A stretch of DNA of 32,540 bases from a virus. The translations under genes were made by a program, and so were the position numbers. How positions within the stretch are numbered: position 1 is the first letter of the stretch; each line of letters starts with the position of its first letter. Below, piece after piece: positions 26,227-32,540 of the stretch. The notes under the pieces were generated by a model that saw only the letters and a program-made list of their open reading frames with translations, did no database searches and was not told the origin of the DNA. The stretch is from IMG/VR virus record IMGVR_UViG_3300035070_001439, positions 1 to 32,540 of that record; one strand, 5' to 3'.

Positions 26227-27384
26227 TTATCTGATAAAATACTTTCCGTATTTAGGTTTGGAAAGTCTATTAACAACACTATACCTCAATGCATCAAGTG
26301 AGTGATTAAAAGCATCTATTGGTTTGTTGGTTAGTTGTCCGTTTTTGTCTTCTATGTATTTGTAATTTTTTAACTCCTTGATCAAATTAATACTATCTTC
26401 TGTTGCAAATAATCTGTATCGTCTTATAATATCAATACCAATAGTTATATCTCCTTTAAAAGTCTTTTTTGTATTCCAACCCATTCTGTGTATTTCTTCT
26501 ATACTCTTTGGCTCGGCACTATCACACCACACCTCATCTCGTCTATCAAGTTGCAATCGCTTTAACTCATTTCCAATGTCTTGGTTTGTAAGTCCTGTTC
26601 TATAAAGTAGTTCTTTAACGTACATATTATCTCCCTCAACATAAGTTTCTACTAATGCAGTAGGATCATTTGTAAAACCGAAATCAAGACCTCTACCAAC
26701 GAGTTTAGCATTTTCTGGAACAAAGGGTATGGTTGAGAAATTAAACACAAGAGATCGGCTCTTACCACGTTCTCCAAGTCCGTAAACCCTCCAATAGTTC
26801 TCGTCAATGTATTTTAATCTTTCAATCTCTTTTACTATTGTATCTGACAAGAAAGGATTGTCTAAATATGATGTCTGGTAAAATTCAGTATCTTCTCGCG
26901 TTAGTACTCTATCATATATCCAATGAAACTCATCTGACGGATTAAAGTCAATTACTATTCTTTCTGTTGTTCTAAATACTAACTGCTGCCAATCTTCAAA
27001 AGTCAATTCGTTTGCTTCATTACAAAACAAGAAATCTCTCTTTCTACCTCGTATTTTTTGTGGCTGATCTAATGAAATAAATTCTACAAGGTTTCCGTTT
27101 AGGTAATATTCGTGAGTAGATTTAGAATGAAATTCTTCTCGGTATAAGTCGTTAGATTTTAGTATATCAAAAAAATCACGCATAACAGTACCTCGTAATG
27201 CAGGAAATGTCTTTCGGCAAATTGTTATTGTCTTGCCTTGATTGTCCGTACAATACTTGAAAATAAGGAATAGTAAAATATTATAAGTTTTACCACTTCT
27301 TGTTCCACCCTGTTCAACTACAATTTTTTCTTTTGAGTTTGCAAGGTGGTCATAGACGATATTAGTCTGTATCTTCGTCTTCAT
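26227..27384 (-). CDS. terL: terminase large subunit
   Basis: A 385-residue packaging motor of the PBSX/SPP1-like type. ATPase: Walker A GGTRSGKT (26-33), Walker B FLFCNEAN (118-125) with catalytic E123. Nuclease: D234 in GRGLDFGFTND, D288 in VWCDSAEP, and D357/H361/D364 in DAFNHSLDALRY. These are the expected RNase H-fold metal residues. It pumps DNA into the prohead and cuts the concatemer. Start overlaps the small subunit by 23 bases. Length is slightly short of the usual 400-450 but all motifs are present. Confidence 0.92.
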   Translation of the reverse strand: MKTKIQTNIVYDHLANSKEKIVVEQGGTRSGKTYNILLFLIFKYCTDNQGKTITICRKTFPALRGTVMRDFFDILKSNDLYREEFHSKSTHEYYLNGNLVEFISLDQPQKIRGRKRDFLFCNEANELTFEDWQQLVFRTTERIVIDFNPSDEFHWIYDRVLTREDTEFYQTSYLDNPFLSDTIVKEIERLKYIDENYWRVYGLGERGKSRSLVFNFSTIPFVPENAKLVGRGLDFGFTNDPTALVETYVEGDNMYVKELLYRTGLTNQDIGNELKRLQLDRRDEVWCDSAEPKSIEEIHRMGWNTKKTFKGDITIGIDIIRRYRLFATEDSINLIKELKNYKYIEDKNGQLTNKPIDAFNHSLDALRYSVVNRLSKPKYGKYFIR

Positions 27385-27736
27385 TCTTTATGGTTCTGAC
27401 TACTTCAATATCAAATAATTTAGTTCCCTCTATTCCTGTTATTTCTTGTCGCTCAATATACCCTCTATTCTTGCCTTTTGTTTTTAAGTAGAATATAGTA
27501 GCAGTTGTATTGCCATTAAGTATTTGTTTGTGCAGTTGGCTTTCTGCCATATCCAAAGTAACATTCTGTAAGTCGTTTACTTGTTTCTTAAATTCTTGAT
27601 CATCTTTTAACCATTGGTAAAATTGTGTTCTACTAACACCAACAGTTTTACATGCAGTTGTAACTATACCAAATGATTTTTCTAATGCATTAAGTACTTC
27701 TTTTTTATTGTGTTCGGTTTGTTCGCTACTTACCAT
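27362..27736 (-). CDS. terS: terminase small subunit
   Basis: A 124-residue DNA-recognition subunit. The N-terminal helix-turn-helix (VLNALEKSFGIVTTACKTVG, then VSRTQFYQWLKDDQEF) is the HTH of small terminases. The helical middle (MAESQLHKQILNGNTTATIF) would form the oligomer and the acidic C-terminus the large-subunit contact. It overlaps the FolE fusion gene by 11 bases and the large subunit by 23. Confidence 0.82.
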   Translation of the reverse strand: MVSSEQTEHNKKEVLNALEKSFGIVTTACKTVGVSRTQFYQWLKDDQEFKKQVNDLQNVTLDMAESQLHKQILNGNTTATIFYLKTKGKNRGYIERQEITGIEGTKLFDIEVVRTIKNEDEDTD

Positions 27737-28574
27737 TTTTAATACTATTTAAAAATTCGTTCTTTGTGTTTATATCGTCTTTAAAAGCACCCAATAGTTT
27801 TGTGGTTGTTGTATGTGTGTCGTGCTTCTTAACTCCTCTCATTTCCATGCACATGTGTTTCGCAGTTATTTGTACCGCTACTCCTTTTGGGTCTAATTCA
27901 TTCCACAAAAATTCTGCTACCTGTGTTGTTATTCTTTCTTGGTTTTGCAATCGCCTTGCAAATGTTTCCAATGTTCTTGCCAACTTACTTAACCCAACTA
28001 TTCTTTTGTTTGGTATGTAAGCTATTGTACCTGTGCCAAAGAAAGGTGCTATGTGATGTTCGCATAAACTATGAAATGGTATGTTTGTTTGTACTATCAT
28101 CTCATCATAGCCTTCTCCTTCAAAACTTGTGCAGTTCCATTTAGGTGGGTTTAAAAACTCTTTAAAGAATTTAATAAATCTTTTAGGTGTTTCTTGTAAC
28201 CCCTCTCTGTTTACATCTTCTCCAAAATACTGCAGTAATCTTGATACATTGTCTTCTACTGTTTCGTCTGTATCTTCTTCTTTTGTTTCCCAAGGAAAGA
28301 CTAACCATTCGCCTTGCAGTTCTTTTCTCTTGTCTATTAATGAAAGAAATGGTTTGTTGTATTTTTTATATCGCTTCTCGGTTGCTCCACTATCAATTAG
28401 GTCATCTATAATAACATCAGCGTCATCTACGTTATCAACTGCGTTTCCTGTCATTCCCGCAACCACTTGCCCACCTCTTGGTACTCCGTAATATTTTGTG
28501 TCTTTTGGTAAATCTTTTATTACTTCATTAAGCCTGTGATAAACTTGTTCCCACGTTATATTTGTTTTGATCAT
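27726..28574 (-). CDS. folE: phosphoribosyltransferase-like domain fused to GTP cyclohydrolase I (FolE)
   Basis: A 282-residue fusion. Residues ~1-95 carry a type I phosphoribosyltransferase-like core: VPRGGQVVAG and the PRPP loop VIIDDLIDSGAT (54-65). Residues ~105-270 are GTP cyclohydrolase I: the HSLCEHHIAPFFG zinc site (C171, H174), the IVGLSKLART strand, QERITTQVAE, and KHMCMEMRG with the third zinc ligand C242. FolE converts GTP to dihydroneopterin triphosphate, the first step of 7-deazaguanine synthesis. The extra domain is not part of ordinary FolE. The start overlaps QueE by 4 bases. Confidence 0.88.
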   Translation of the reverse strand: MIKTNITWEQVYHRLNEVIKDLPKDTKYYGVPRGGQVVAGMTGNAVDNVDDADVIIDDLIDSGATEKRYKKYNKPFLSLIDKRKELQGEWLVFPWETKEEDTDETVEDNVSRLLQYFGEDVNREGLQETPKRFIKFFKEFLNPPKWNCTSFEGEGYDEMIVQTNIPFHSLCEHHIAPFFGTGTIAYIPNKRIVGLSKLARTLETFARRLQNQERITTQVAEFLWNELDPKGVAVQITAKHMCMEMRGVKKHDTHTTTTKLLGAFKDDINTKNEFLNSIKNGK

Positions 28575-29302
28575 ACTCCTGTTTTTTTATTCCAGACATC
28601 AATGTGCAATCTGGTTGTAAAGTTTAAATATTTTTCTTTTGCTAACTCTATAACTCGTAATTTATTTTCATTTAATAAATCTTGGTTTTCTCCTGCAGGC
28701 ATCAAATAAATTTTTTCTCTGTCTACAATAGATAAATAATCTCTTTCTATTTCTGTCCATTCTTTATCTGAATTTACCACAAACTTAAAAATTGTATTCT
28801 TTTTATTTAATTCCTTAATCACATCTGACTTAAAAGTCATAGCATTATCCATACCACTATTTCTCAATTTTGGACTACAATTCCATAAGTGAACTTGATA
28901 CAATAAAAACTCACTTGGCATTATTGTTCCATTAGTTTCAACTTCAAAATAAGCATTTGCGTTTATGTTGTGCTTTACATATTTAATAAAACCCTCTAAA
29001 CCACTTTGCTGCATCATTGGCTCTCCACCTGTCAGAATTATATGTGCATCATTCTTGATTGCTTCAATGCAATCGTCTGGCAAAATTTCCTCGTATTCTT
29101 TTGATAACGCTTTTGTCCAAACTTCAACTGTGTCGCATCTAAATTCTGCACCATTATGTAACTCTCCGTCAAATTGAGTTCCCATACCTCCACACATTAA
29201 GTTGCACCCTCCTAATCGGACAAACACACTTGGTATGCCTACGGTCTTACCCTCGCCTTGCATTGAGTAAAACACTTCACTTATTGCTAATTTATTCTTC
29301 AT
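28571..29302 (-). CDS. queE: 7-carboxy-7-deazaguanine synthase (radical SAM QueE)
   Basis: A 243-residue QueE. EVFYSMQGEGKTVGIPSVFV is the N-terminal substrate-binding motif, followed by RLGGCNLMC. Cluster cysteines appear to be C33, C37 and C56: C-x3-C is followed by an 18-residue insertion before the last Cys (RCDT), unlike the common Cx3Cx2C. LTGGEPMMQ (~91-99) is the GGEP motif. It converts 6-carboxytetrahydropterin to 7-carboxy-7-deazaguanine. It overlaps QueD by 11 bases. The assignment is firm despite the cluster insertion. Confidence 0.9.
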   Translation of the reverse strand: MKNKLAISEVFYSMQGEGKTVGIPSVFVRLGGCNLMCGGMGTQFDGELHNGAEFRCDTVEVWTKALSKEYEEILPDDCIEAIKNDAHIILTGGEPMMQQSGLEGFIKYVKHNINANAYFEVETNGTIMPSEFLLYQVHLWNCSPKLRNSGMDNAMTFKSDVIKELNKKNTIFKFVVNSDKEWTEIERDYLSIVDREKIYLMPAGENQDLLNENKLRVIELAKEKYLNFTTRLHIDVWNKKTGV

Positions 29303-29687
29303 ATATTATCTTGCTTGATTTAGTTTCTGCAAATTCTATTTTTGTTATAGGTAGCTTTGCTTCATTTTTAATTCTATTAAATAACCATATTGCCATATTC
29401 TCGGCAGAGGTTTCAAAAGGTACAGTTTTATATTCTTCTCCTGCCAATTCTAATAACTCTACCAAAGGGTCGTCTTCACTTAATAAGAAGTAATGATCAT
29501 ACTCCTTAATTATTGGCTCTACTAATTTATCTATTTCGGAAAACAACATTGTAATTCCATTCTCCATTGTTTGGAATTTAAAAGTACAAGTCACATCATA
29601 AGTATGTCCATGTGGTCTTCCACATTTTATTCCTGCTTCTTTGTTTCTATGACCTGCATAGAAGTGGTATCTTTTTTCTATTTTCAT
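29292..29687 (-). CDS. queD: 6-carboxytetrahydropterin synthase (QueD)
   Basis: A 131-residue QueD. Zinc ligands are H13 (FYAGHR), H26 and H28 (GRPHGH); catalytic C22 sits just before (KCGRPHGH). The D64-H65 pair (YDHYF), the SAENMA helix (E96) and the pterin-anchoring E121 in EFAET complete the site. It turns dihydroneopterin triphosphate into 6-carboxytetrahydropterin, feeding QueE, the next gene. Start overlaps the 133-residue gene by 4 bases. Confidence 0.9.
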   Translation of the reverse strand: MKIEKRYHFYAGHRNKEAGIKCGRPHGHTYDVTCTFKFQTMENGITMLFSEIDKLVEPIIKEYDHYFLLSEDDPLVELLELAGEEYKTVPFETSAENMAIWLFNRIKNEAKLPITKIEFAETKSSKIIYEE

Positions 29688-30085
29688 AAGGTGTCGTTTG
29701 AATAATCATTATAATTTACTTTGAGTGCATTGTGTTTAGTAAAGCATAAAACGTTAAACATATTTCCGTCTACAAATACACTATCTGTTTCTTTTAAGTC
29801 AAACACATTTTTGTCTTTAACTCTATATATTATGTGGGCTCTTACTTTTATGTTTGGTGTAAGGTGTTTATAGGTTTCGTTTGTTACTTCAACCGATACA
29901 GGATATTCTAACATCCAATACTCAATTAGTTCTGCTGCATTCTCCAACTCCCAAAATTCAACTGTAAAGTATAAGTGTTGTACTTCTTTTGTTATTATTC
30001 CAACTTTGTTTCTATTGAATAAAGTATGTAGACCAAATAATCTACCCTCTACTTCTTTTCCATACCAATAATCTTTTCCTCTCAT
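29684..30085 (-). CDS. unknown protein inside 7-deazaguanine operon, 133 aa
   Basis: Not recognised. Begins MRGKDYWYGKEVEGRLFGLH, then TLFNRNKVGIITKEVQHLYF, an acidic helix (WELENAAELIEYWMLEYPVS) and a C-terminal beta region (DSVFVDGNMFNVLCFTKHNA). No radical SAM, ATP-grasp, Rossmann or Zn-finger motif is visible. It overlaps the glycosyltransferase and QueD genes by 4 bases each, so it is co-translated with the modification enzymes. Candidate roles are base-tailoring enzyme, pathway chaperone or DpdA partner. Confidence 0.7.
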   Translation of the reverse strand: MRGKDYWYGKEVEGRLFGLHTLFNRNKVGIITKEVQHLYFTVEFWELENAAELIEYWMLEYPVSVEVTNETYKHLTPNIKVRAHIIYRVKDKNVFDLKETDSVFVDGNMFNVLCFTKHNALKVNYNDYSNDTL

Positions 30086-31083
30086 ACTAATAAGTCTATC
30101 ATGTTATTAAAACTTTTATCATATAAATTAGTGTAACCTCTCGGCATTTTAAACTCGGTAGTTAAATACTTTTTAATTGTATCTAAATCTTTTCTGTTGT
30201 ATAAGCATTCTTCTGGTAACATTTCTGGATAGCATAATTCGTTTGGAACTACTATTCTGCAGTCATATAACATTGCTTCTCTTAATGTATAACCAAAAGT
30301 TTCTTGATATGCAGTAGATAAATAATATTTTGCTTTTGACAAGTAAGTATAGTATTGTCTTTTTGTTAGGTTGTTTACATATCTTACGTTGCTTGGTAAA
30401 TCAAGATTGCACTCTTTATTTGAAGATGAGGTAACTATAAATTTCTTATCTGGCATTGCTTGTGCTATGGCTAAAAAATCATCAATACCTTTTTCTTCGG
30501 ACAACCTGTGTGGAAAAATTACAAAATCTTCTTTCTCATCTTTATGTGGATATATTTTATACGCTTCTTTATTGTTCCAAACACAACCTGTAACTTCAAC
30601 TTTATCTTCATCTAAATTAAAATACTTTACTACTTTGTTTTTATGAAATTCACTACCTACAATAATTAAATCGCAAACTTCGTGGTAACCTTTCTCAACA
30701 AAGTCGCTCCACTTGTTTAACTTTTGCACAAAGTCAGTTTCGTCTGACCTACCTGCGTGATTAAACGCTGCAACCTTAATGTCTATATCTTGCAACTCGG
30801 ACATATACTTAACTGCATCTAAACCACTAAAAAATATGTCTGCAAAAAATATCCAATCTCCGTTTTTAATTTCATTGTCTTGGAAAGCTTTGCTGATCAT
30901 TTGCAGTTGCTTTGCTTTAAATTCAATAGTTCTTTCTATGTCTAAAAACTCTCCTTTATTAATTTGTTTCTGTTTCCAATTTTTTGGGTAATATGACTTA
31001 ACAAGGTTAGAACTGTTTACTATCTCGTTCATTAAGCCTGTGTACCTTTCTTCTAAATTTTCTAGTGGTATAAAGTGTATCAT
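30082..31083 (-). CDS. GT-B fold glycosyltransferase (GT4-like)
   Basis: A 333-residue glycosyltransferase. The C-terminal half has the NDP-sugar site: VIFPHRLSEEKGIDDFLAIA (~188-207) with the RLSxEKG motif, FIVTSSS, and E261-x7-E269 in QETFGYTLREAM, the GT4 signature. The N-terminal half is shorter and more divergent, as expected for an acceptor domain. It sits between the QueD-like gene and the unknown gene with 4-base overlaps. It may put a sugar on the modified base, or act on host glycans. The operon position favours the first. Confidence 0.8.
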   Translation of the reverse strand: MIHFIPLENLEERYTGLMNEIVNSSNLVKSYYPKNWKQKQINKGEFLDIERTIEFKAKQLQMISKAFQDNEIKNGDWIFFADIFFSGLDAVKYMSELQDIDIKVAAFNHAGRSDETDFVQKLNKWSDFVEKGYHEVCDLIIVGSEFHKNKVVKYFNLDEDKVEVTGCVWNNKEAYKIYPHKDEKEDFVIFPHRLSEEKGIDDFLAIAQAMPDKKFIVTSSSNKECNLDLPSNVRYVNNLTKRQYYTYLSKAKYYLSTAYQETFGYTLREAMLYDCRIVVPNELCYPEMLPEECLYNRKDLDTIKKYLTTEFKMPRGYTNLYDKSFNNMIDLLV

Positions 31084-31418
31084 CTTATTATTGCTCCGTT
31101 TTCGTTATCTTCTAATACTTCTACTAAATCTGCTTGAAAGACGTTATACAATTCTTCTGCTATATCTTCGCAACTCATGTTACCAAAAATGTGTGACTGC
31201 TTATCAATATCAAAATATTCTAATTTTAAATAAGTTAATACGTTGTGCTTAAATTGTATAATTTCTAACTCCCTGTCATTATGCGTAACTTTCTTTTCTA
31301 TTCTTATTTTAAACAAGTGCCTGTGCGGATTGGTTAAAAAATCTACTTCCTCTATTGAGCAATCTTTCCATTGATGTATTCCGTCTATACTTAATTTTAT
31401 GACAATTCTTTTTTCCAT
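31080..31418 (-). CDS. QueD-fold protein without catalytic cysteine; DpdL-like candidate
   Basis: A 112-residue divergent T-fold relative of QueD. Zinc histidines are kept (H15 in IHQW; H32 and H34 in NPHRHLF), as are the helix SCEDIAEELY (E84) and the anchoring E103 in VEVLEDNENG. The catalytic Cys of QueD, expected four residues before H32, is replaced by L28. A true QueD is already encoded downstream, so this copy is probably not redundant. A CDG decarboxylase (DpdL, described as a QueD-like protein as I recall) is the leading hypothesis. It overlaps DpdA by 22 bases. Confidence 0.65.
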   Translation of the reverse strand: MEKRIVIKLSIDGIHQWKDCSIEEVDFLTNPHRHLFKIRIEKKVTHNDRELEIIQFKHNVLTYLKLEYFDIDKQSHIFGNMSCEDIAEELYNVFQADLVEVLEDNENGAIIR

Positions 31419-32296
31419 TTCTCGTATGTTAGTTTATTTTCTAAAAGTTCTTTTGTTTTTATAATGTGATTAAGTTGTTGTCTATTTGCTACTGCAAGAA
31501 ATAAATTAAGACCAAGTCTTTTGCAGAATTTTTGATATTCAAAGTATGCAATTAAATTTGTAAGTACTGCAATACTTGTGGACCCCCTGTGGTTTGTTAA
31601 GTCACTAAATATTTTAGGTGTGATTTCTAAACTTTCAAATAAGGATTGTGCTTTATGAGTTAATTTCTTTTTGCCTTTTAAAACATCTTTATAATTTAAA
31701 CCTTTAAGTCCGTTATCAAAGTAAACTATATGTCCAAACTTTTGAGAAGATTGCACCCACGTACTGCTATCGCAAGAATGCAAAGGCAGTTGTAACATTT
31801 GAGGATATTTCACAAAACCAAGTGCATGTATGTTTCCATTGGTTTGCTTGTAAACATCTTGGTATCTTTTTTTTATCCAATCTCCTTTTGTGGTTACACC
31901 ACCTGCAACGCAAACGTGGTTATTTCTTTTAACTGCTTCTTGCAAATAAGAATAGTCGTTGTCAAACATAGTAAAGACAAACATTGGGTCTAAACCTCTT
32001 TGCAGCATAGTTTCATAATTTAACTTACTTTTACTATGATTGCCTATTACGTCTAACATAACATACTTTTCTACATTGTGTCCATACTTTTCAATATAGT
32101 CGCAGTAGTTGTCTAATGTTAAAAATTTTAAATTTTGTTTAGAATTAAATAAAGTAAACGCACCACTATCTATCATGCAATTAATAGTGCCCTCTGCACT
32201 TAAAGACATTGCTTGATCAGTAAACGCTTTATTGTTCCCTATGTAAGCATAACTAACTAATATGTTTAACCACGTATCATTTGACTTCACAACCAA
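31397..32296 (-). CDS. dpdA: DpdA-type DNA guanine transglycosylase
   Basis: A 299-residue TGT-like TIM-barrel protein. MIDSGAF (41-47) with D43 parallels the DSGGF general-base motif of tRNA-guanine transglycosylase. YVMLDVIGNHSKSK, VCVAGGVTTKGDW and HALGFVKYPQM (~157-167) are barrel strands. SCDSSTW (174-180) with D176 matches the SxDSxxW motif that marks DpdA proteins and supplies the nucleophile. Such enzymes swap guanine in DNA for a 7-deazaguanine base. Start is TTG at 32294-32296; GTG at 32288-32290 is an alternative. First complete gene of the operon. Confidence 0.85.
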   Translation of the reverse strand: MVVKSNDTWLNILVSYAYIGNNKAFTDQAMSLSAEGTINCMIDSGAFTLFNSKQNLKFLTLDNYCDYIEKYGHNVEKYVMLDVIGNHSKSKLNYETMLQRGLDPMFVFTMFDNDYSYLQEAVKRNNHVCVAGGVTTKGDWIKKRYQDVYKQTNGNIHALGFVKYPQMLQLPLHSCDSSTWVQSSQKFGHIVYFDNGLKGLNYKDVLKGKKKLTHKAQSLFESLEITPKIFSDLTNHRGSTSIAVLTNLIAYFEYQKFCKRLGLNLFLAVANRQQLNHIIKTKELLENKLTYEKWKKELS

Positions 32297-32432
32297 GATA
32301 GTTTTTTGTTATCCAATCCTTTAAATCATTTGTAAGTTTTTGTATCTCGTCTCTGTACTCGTTTGGAATTGTTACTGTTAGTTTTGTTTCTTCTAATTCT
32401 GGTGGTGCTATATCTTTTGGGGATTCCAACCA
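32277..32432 (-). pseudogene. C-terminal fragment of unknown gene upstream of dpdA
   Basis: About 50 codons end at TGA 32277-32279. The peptide includes PPELEETKLTVTIPNEYRDE and ends ITKNYLGCEVK. The frame is blocked by TAA at 32433-32435, just where the sequence becomes foreign (plus-strand chaperone fragment). The fragment therefore looks like the true end of a longer gene cut by a chimeric join and not a complete gene. Its end overlaps the dpdA start by 20 bases, consistent with membership of the operon. Function unknown. Confidence 0.55.
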
Positions 32433-32441
32433 TTACACAAG

Positions 32442-32540
32442 ATGTCAGCTGGTGAGTATATATATTTAGAAGCTAGATTACAAAAGGGAGTAGGTTCTCT
32501 TAATGAAGTACTAGCCATCTTATACAGACCAATCAAATCA
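32442..32540 (+). CDS. partial tail assembly chaperone homolog on opposite strand
   Basis: The plus strand from 32442 reads MSAGEYIYLEARLQKGVGSL then NEVLAILYRPIKS, with no stop before the window end. It aligns to the tail chaperone at 24010-24663 (MTFGEYIDLDTYLSD, then KAMAVLYRPIK). Upstream GFQPLHK may also match GFIPNLEE of that protein. The nucleotide sequence differs, so it is a homolog and not a copied piece. Orientation opposes every other gene. It is probably chimeric sequence from another phage; a true paralog is the alternative. Confidence 0.7.
   Translation, partial: MSAGEYIYLEARLQKGVGSLNEVLAILYRPIKS

Follow-up and report, generated by a model that had tools for sequence, protein, structure and literature searches.

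The virus record IMGVR_UViG_3300035070_001439 of IMG/VR (positions 1 to 32,540; this whole stretch of 32,540 nucleotides is called here the window) carries a compact operon predicted to place a modified 7-deazaguanine in phage DNA. The operon consists of seven overlapping open reading frames (ORFs) on the minus strand, spanning positions 27726-32296. Following the order from dpdA, the products are a DpdA-type DNA guanine transglycosylase (31397..32296; 299 aa, TTG start with an alternative GTG at 32290), a DpdL-like QueD paralogue (31080..31418; 112 aa), a GT4-type glycosyltransferase (GT) of the GT-B, EX7E kind (30082..31083; 333 aa), a protein of 133 residues named here X133 (29684..30085), the 6-carboxytetrahydropterin synthase QueD (29292..29687; 131 aa), the 7-carboxy-7-deazaguanine (CDG) synthase QueE (28571..29302; 243 aa) and a fusion protein (27726..28574) in which a Gpt-like phosphoribosyltransferase (PRT) domain (residues 1-98) is followed by the GTP cyclohydrolase I FolE (residues ~105-282). 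Neighbouring genes overlap by 22 bases (dpdA/dpdL), 11 bases (queD/queE) or 4 bases (dpdL/GT, GT/X133, X133/queD and queE/folE). An initial annotation had already described a seven-gene operon here, and all its ORFs have been confirmed, with overlaps of 4 to 22 bases.

In known systems FolE, QueD and QueE supply the base and DpdA inserts 7-deazaguanines into DNA (PMC6884629). The initial annotation had assigned these three enzymes to the route from GTP to CDG, and profile searches support each assignment. QueD matches the PTPS family (PF01242, E 1.3e-24) and also TIGR03367 (E 6.2e-19), in the latter case with a score of 68, below the cut-off of 89; its canonical residues Cys22, His26, His28, Asp64, His65 and Glu121 are present. 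QueE matches phrog_2076 (E 3.1e-53) and TIGR03963 (E 1.6e-21), and the cluster cysteines C33, C37 and C56 are invariant, as are G92-G93-P95 (GGxP). The second and third of these cysteines are separated by a long insert, giving C-x3-C-x18-C instead of C-x3-C-x2-C; the QueEs of other modules have inserts of different lengths at the same site. FolE is recognised by PF01227 (E 1.7e-63) and by TIGR00063 with 199.5 bits, above the curated cut-off of 181.6.

QueC, without which the path would stop short of preQ0, was not found anywhere in the window by a profile search that was positive in 12 of 14 control genomes. It was likewise not found in 35 related records, including the complete phages phiST, MA9V-3, Roos and ACP17, nor in four of five further complete phages (PA5oct, Phosso, BUCT-ZZ01 and Paride); the fifth, phage X1, gives a sub-threshold match only (16 bits, E 6.6e-4). 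The absence of QueC noted in the initial annotation thus holds for the related complete phages and for a nearly complete genome, given that the ends of the contig nearly close.

The assignment of DpdA also stands. The protein matches phrog_887 ('queuine tRNA-ribosyltransferase', E 3.7e-31), and tblastn searches with it reached 165 phage records, in which annotated phage DpdA/Tgt genes were matched down to E 7e-15 with 25-31% identity. The DSGA and SxDSS motifs and the active-site aspartates D43 and D176 are invariant in nine relatives, and the two aspartates are kept in distant relatives too. The DpdA profile matches a TGT-like cluster (C6) at E 6.7e-6; it had no match in PDB, and the Pfam TGT model had none in the window. 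The protein is very probably a DpdA-type DNA guanine transglycosylase, predicted from these motifs to exchange guanine in DNA.

The second gene encodes a QueD paralogue, which we take to be the DpdL of Cui et al. 2023, a predicted decarboxylase of CDG. Cui and colleagues are said to have obtained dDG or dCDG from DpdL-bearing phages without QueC. Phage phiST, presumably one of theirs, carries a homologue of this protein. The paralogue matches phrog_17812 (E 4.9e-23) and, by hhalign, QueD (E 2.3e-7). Its AlphaFold (AF2) model has a pLDDT of 95, and among the solved structures compared the best match of this model is E. coli QueD (Z 12.5, root-mean-square deviation 2.2 over 104 residues). In an alignment of 98 sequences the Zn-type residues His32 and His34 are present in all 98 and His15 in 97 (with one gap), and the final Glu103 is conserved. 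The initial annotation had called the protein 'Cys-less', which is right with regard to the catalytic Cys of QueD, replaced by Leu28, and wrong for the protein as a whole, since it has a Cys83 of its own (S-C-E motif) that is invariant in 98 of 98 sequences. The Asp-His pair of QueD is gone as well, and Arg33, Arg49 and an ED pair are further active-site features differing from QueD. The DpdL-like protein probably processes CDG, by analogy through a Zn-assisted decarboxylation to 7-deazaguanine. A match of the DpdL profile to a kinase cluster (C21, 4e-14) was discarded as an artefact, since the open frames overlap and extend into the adjacent gene. In the Chryseobacterium phage MA9V-3 (L001:6455-7336) DpdL forms the C-terminal part of a protein with an endonuclease VII-like N-terminus, and in the Faecalibacterium phage Roos (L003:6303-8899) the genes present are ParB-like, DpdL, DpdA and a PF02592 (YhhQ-type) transporter.

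The third gene encodes a glycosyltransferase matching PF00534 (Glycos_transf_1) at E 3.4e-9, with 36.9 bits against a cut-off of 26.4. Its EX7E motif reads 'QETFGYTLRE' (E261-x7-E269) and is weaker in distant relatives; against PDB, its profile matches the mannosyltransferase 2f9f (E 8.4e-6). When viral contigs were searched with the GT alone, 31 loci were obtained and all 31 contain other genes of the module. With DpdL as the sole query the same search had at least 578 matches, from which 69 distinct loci were sampled. The GT is present in 46 of these and a transglycosylase of any kind in 61, belonging to three distantly related subfamilies (DpdA in 25, the TGT-like C6 in 22 and C13 in 14). 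The partner of the GT is DpdA in 20 loci and C6 in 22, and the GT was found in none of the 14 C13 loci (Fisher p 5e-9 over the 69 loci, a value which, owing to shared ancestry, is only a guide). A survey of 50,697 phage records found the GT in 20 and DpdL in 26; both occur, close together, in 16, namely eleven of the Pseudomonas aeruginosa PA5oct/Paride group, two of ACP17, and X1, Phosso and BUCT-ZZ01. Complete phages with the set are PA5oct, Paride, ACP17, X1, Phosso and BUCT-ZZ01; in PA5oct and Paride, FolE and QueD are also encoded, elsewhere in the genome. Among bacterial genomes only two fragments turned up; both carry module genes and come from Bacteroidales and Flavobacteriia bins. The gene orders of the GT loci vary widely, so that the linkage is more than one inherited arrangement, and their hosts range from Bacteroidota to Synechococcus. 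The GT belongs to the module and is no passenger.

Three loci (L093, L116 and L129) keep the setting of ParB-like, DpdA, DpdL, QueD, QueE and PRT-FolE genes without the GT, from which it follows that the DpdA-DpdL core seems able to work alone; the GT and X133 look like a decoration step added to this core. A further GT4 family (C19, PF00534) is present in 11 loci, all with the GT. Related to this, large phages with T4-like replication genes (L024-L036) carry two paralogous GTs and C19 around DpdL, and an oligosaccharide on the base is predicted for them. Eight loci (for example L021:6959-7975), all with the GT, contain a radical-SAM/SPASM protein (C33), which in several cases is flanked immediately by DpdL on one side and the GT on the other; it is possibly a further tailoring enzyme. 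A second branch of DpdL loci, of the phiST type (L001, L002, L067-L107 and L140-L142), has the C13 transglycosylase (phrog_20335) and never the GT, and often encodes a dCTP-deaminase-like protein (C17) and an AAA kinase (phrog_19196).

X133 gave no convincing match in the family libraries (TIGRFAM, Pfam and PHROG type) scanned for the window proteins, and homologues were found neither in solved structures by sequence nor in phage records by tblastn. The protein occurs only together with the GT: all 22 loci with X133 have it, and so do the 19 DpdL-selected loci with X133 or its homologue C28 (hhalign, 3.6e-4). X133 is thus a possible partner of the GT. The AF2 model has a pLDDT of 77. Some likeness to QueE appears in the top three VIA structure matches (Z 5.5-5.9) and by hhalign (E 0.0012 over 22 columns); that X133 is a degenerate QueE is not claimed, as Foldseek ranks QueE 35th (E 2.3) and C28 matches QueE at E 0.045 only.

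The initial annotation gave no role to the PRT domain that precedes FolE, and a likeness to xanthine-guanine phosphoribosyltransferase (XGPRT), weak in sequence, has been found here. The domain has the motifs PRGG, DDLIDSGxT and WLVFPWE (W-x3-PWE-like), and the top matches of its profile in PDB are purine or xanthine-guanine phosphoribosyltransferases (E 0.0019 to 0.04), among them 1vdm (0.0019) and the E. coli XGPRT 1a95 (0.022). Of 73 FolE loci, 12 have a Gpt-like PRT fused to FolE, and in 10 loci the PRT is a separate gene; the fused and separate forms match each other weakly. In phage BUCT-ZZ01 the separate gene adjoins queE and is annotated as XGPRT. Since DpdA releases guanine, the salvage of guanine to GMP would be a natural role for this domain, and the likeness to XGPRT suggests that it may salvage the guanine displaced by DpdA.

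We propose that the operon carries out a hypermodification of phage DNA in which guanine would be replaced by a glycosylated 7-deazaguanine, and give this reading, with a product and a sugar predicted from the gene families, a probability of roughly 0.58. GTP would be converted to CDG by FolE, QueD and QueE, and CDG to 7-deazaguanine by DpdL, probably via Zn-assisted decarboxylation. DpdA would swap guanine in the phage DNA for the product of DpdL, and the GT, with X133 as partner, would put a sugar on the inserted base. The guanine so displaced would probably be turned into GMP by the Gpt-like domain fused to FolE. The order of these steps and the point of attachment of the sugar are likewise predictions. 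The purpose would most likely be protection from host restriction, as in other 7-deazaguanine phages. The initial annotation considered CDG, 7-deazaguanine and a glycosylated derivative as products of equal standing; all three are kept, with unequal weight, and the glycosylated one is favoured because the GT and X133 are in the module of many phages, some of which have two or three GT genes. A broader proposal, in which glycosylated 7-deazaguanine, possibly a C7 C-glycoside, would define a widespread class of phage DNA, with up to three sugars where two or three GTs are encoded, with guanine recycling by Gpt-FolE and with the jumbo phages Paride and PA5oct included, is made more tentatively, its chances being somewhat short of even.

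Several points weigh against the proposed pathway. Phage Roos has DpdL and DpdA but neither FolE nor QueD, in place of which it carries a transporter, and such a gene set fits poorly with DpdL acting only on CDG made by the phage; Roos may import its deazaguanine. Surface glycans are a frequent product of GT4 enzymes, and the module has no constant sugar-nucleotide gene. The four remaining GT records of the survey (PhiXhv and Ep032) give a weaker GT match and no DpdL match, and in PhiXhv-15, the one inspected among the four, the GT4 gene sits beside amino-sugar genes. The sequence match of the PRT domain to XGPRT is weak (E 0.002 to 0.02), and the host may supply QueC. Finally, the decarboxylated base has no obvious hydroxyl, so the sugar would have to be placed on C7 (as a C-glycoside) or on N2. 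Should DpdL catalyse another reaction, the sugar may go on the carboxylate.

This last point leads to an alternative that is unlikely but deserves serious attention, namely that DpdL is no decarboxylase. CDG would then be inserted and the GT would make an acyl-glycoside (a sugar ester), or DpdL would activate CDG for the GT. The carboxylate is the sole ready O-nucleophile on the base, the departures of the DpdL active site from that of QueD (Leu28 at the Cys position, together with invariant Cys83, Arg33, Arg49 and the ED pair) leave room for a different reaction, and carboxymethylcytosine is a precedent for a carboxylate handle in phage DNA (PMC12783734). However, DpdL is also present without any GT, and is therefore not tied to the reaction of the GT; moreover, dDG is reported as the yield of DpdL-bearing phages (Cui et al. 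2023).

It is distinctly unlikely that the DNA base, as reported for other phages without QueC, is unglycosylated 7-deazaguanine or CDG and that the GT acts elsewhere, for instance on glycans at the host surface or on proteins of the phage. GT-less sets of DpdA, DpdL, QueD, QueE and FolE do exist (L062 and L063 in addition to the three syntenic loci L093, L116 and L129), as well as the 14 loci of C13 type, and related GT4 genes occur in the unrelated sugar cluster of PhiXhv-15. Nevertheless, the GT and X133 track DpdL across two transglycosylase subfamilies, many gene orders and that whole range of hosts, which is not expected of a surface-glycan gene, and the 4-base overlaps on both sides tie the GT to module genes in the window.

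The order of the last two steps could also be reversed, the GT (with X133) glycosylating the free base and DpdA inserting the finished base, as eukaryotic TGT inserts queuine. The transglycosylases paired with the GT (DpdA type and C6) do differ from C13, and selection for a bulky base would lead one to expect this. Yet all three are distant homologues with no sign of altered base pockets, and where bases of phage DNA are known to receive sugars, as in T4, the DNA is already polymerised, so this order is considered improbable. That the CDG of the phage passes to a host QueC, giving a DNA base derived from preQ0, is very improbable: QueC is common in bacteria and archaea, as the control genomes illustrate, and it has been proposed that hosts complement incomplete sets in phages (PMC7824862), but the whole DpdL class is without QueC in the records compared and a route from CDG to preQ0 would leave DpdL without a purpose.

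With regard to the surroundings of the operon, the chain of overlaps extends past folE into the terminase genes terS and terL (26227..27736, minus strand; phrog_4044 at 2.4e-9 and PF04466 at 5.8e-21), with overlaps of 11 bases (folE/terS) and 23 bases (terS/terL); both are probably co-transcribed with the module and outside the pathway. Upstream of dpdA lies the C-terminal part (residues 149-193) of a ParB-like gene (32280..32432, minus strand), whose N-terminal part (residues 17-133) is found on the same strand at positions 1-378, at the other end of the contig. These parts are 84% and 95% identical to the ParB-like protein of the relative L007; in L005 and L007 the gene is unbroken and directly upstream of dpdA. 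Because the two ends hold complementary parts of one gene, with about 15 residues absent at the junction, the 32.5-kb record is nearly the whole genome; no end repeat is present in it. The last ~124 bases (32417-32540) match neither the ParB gene of the relatives nor any locus compared, and an assembly tail and a small insertion are candidate readings.

Sugars in phage DNA are known mainly on pyrimidines, and a sugar on a deazaguanine would, if the pathway is right, be a new type of DNA base. It would account for the way in which such phages may get past restriction systems, and three families now hypothetical (phrog_17812, the GT and X133) would gain a function. Hundreds of viral contigs contain the DpdL family, two thirds of those sampled also have the GT, and the predicted base is directly testable, as isolated phages with the set are in use, including PA5oct, Paride and Callisto of P. 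aeruginosa. The Gpt-FolE fusion suggests a recycling of the guanine released by base exchange, a matter which to our knowledge has not been addressed before. In a literature search no report was found that connects any glycosyltransferase with deazaguanine gene sets lacking QueC, a mention in Cui 2023, the 2024 MMBR review or Iyer 2013 being possible, and a key-term search of the Paride and Callisto papers found no report of modified DNA. The GT branch, X133 and the PRT-FolE fusion appear to be new. QueC-less phage systems are already known, and DpdL is reported from the work of Cui et al. 2023.

Among known systems, the DpdL-type phages without QueC (reported by Cui et al. 2023, NAR 51:9214) likewise have FolE, QueD, QueE, a transglycosylase and the QueD-like DpdL. 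phiST belongs to the branch with the C13 transglycosylase and has a kinase and no GT, whereas the module of the window has DpdA, the GT, X133 and a PRT fused to FolE. The phages CAjan and 9g, with dPreQ0 or dG+ (PMC6884629), use the same FolE-QueD-QueE supply and insertion by DpdA, but contain QueC or Gat-QueC and have no DpdL or GT described, in contrast to the window, which has both and lacks QueC; phage Bipper and clone 7AX_2 have been reported without QueC (Hutinet et al. 2019, PMC6884629), and a deazaguanine system in PA5oct was noted by Iyer et al. 2021 (PMC7824862). The PRT domain shares with Gpt (XGPRT) its motifs and the 1vdm and 1a95 profile matches, but it has about 98 residues, is fused to FolE and scores low. 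A sugar on a 7-deazaguanine in nucleic acid is known from the mannosyl- and galactosyl-queuosine of vertebrate tRNA (PMC8654956), where the nucleic acid is RNA and the sugar is attached to the cyclopentenediol of queuosine, a group absent here. The alpha- and beta-glucosyltransferases of T4, acting on hydroxymethylcytosine, are likewise phage enzymes that decorate a base altered by phage enzymes; the base is a different one, with no obvious acceptor hydroxyl in the present case, and the GT of the window falls in the GT4 Pfam group (PF00534).

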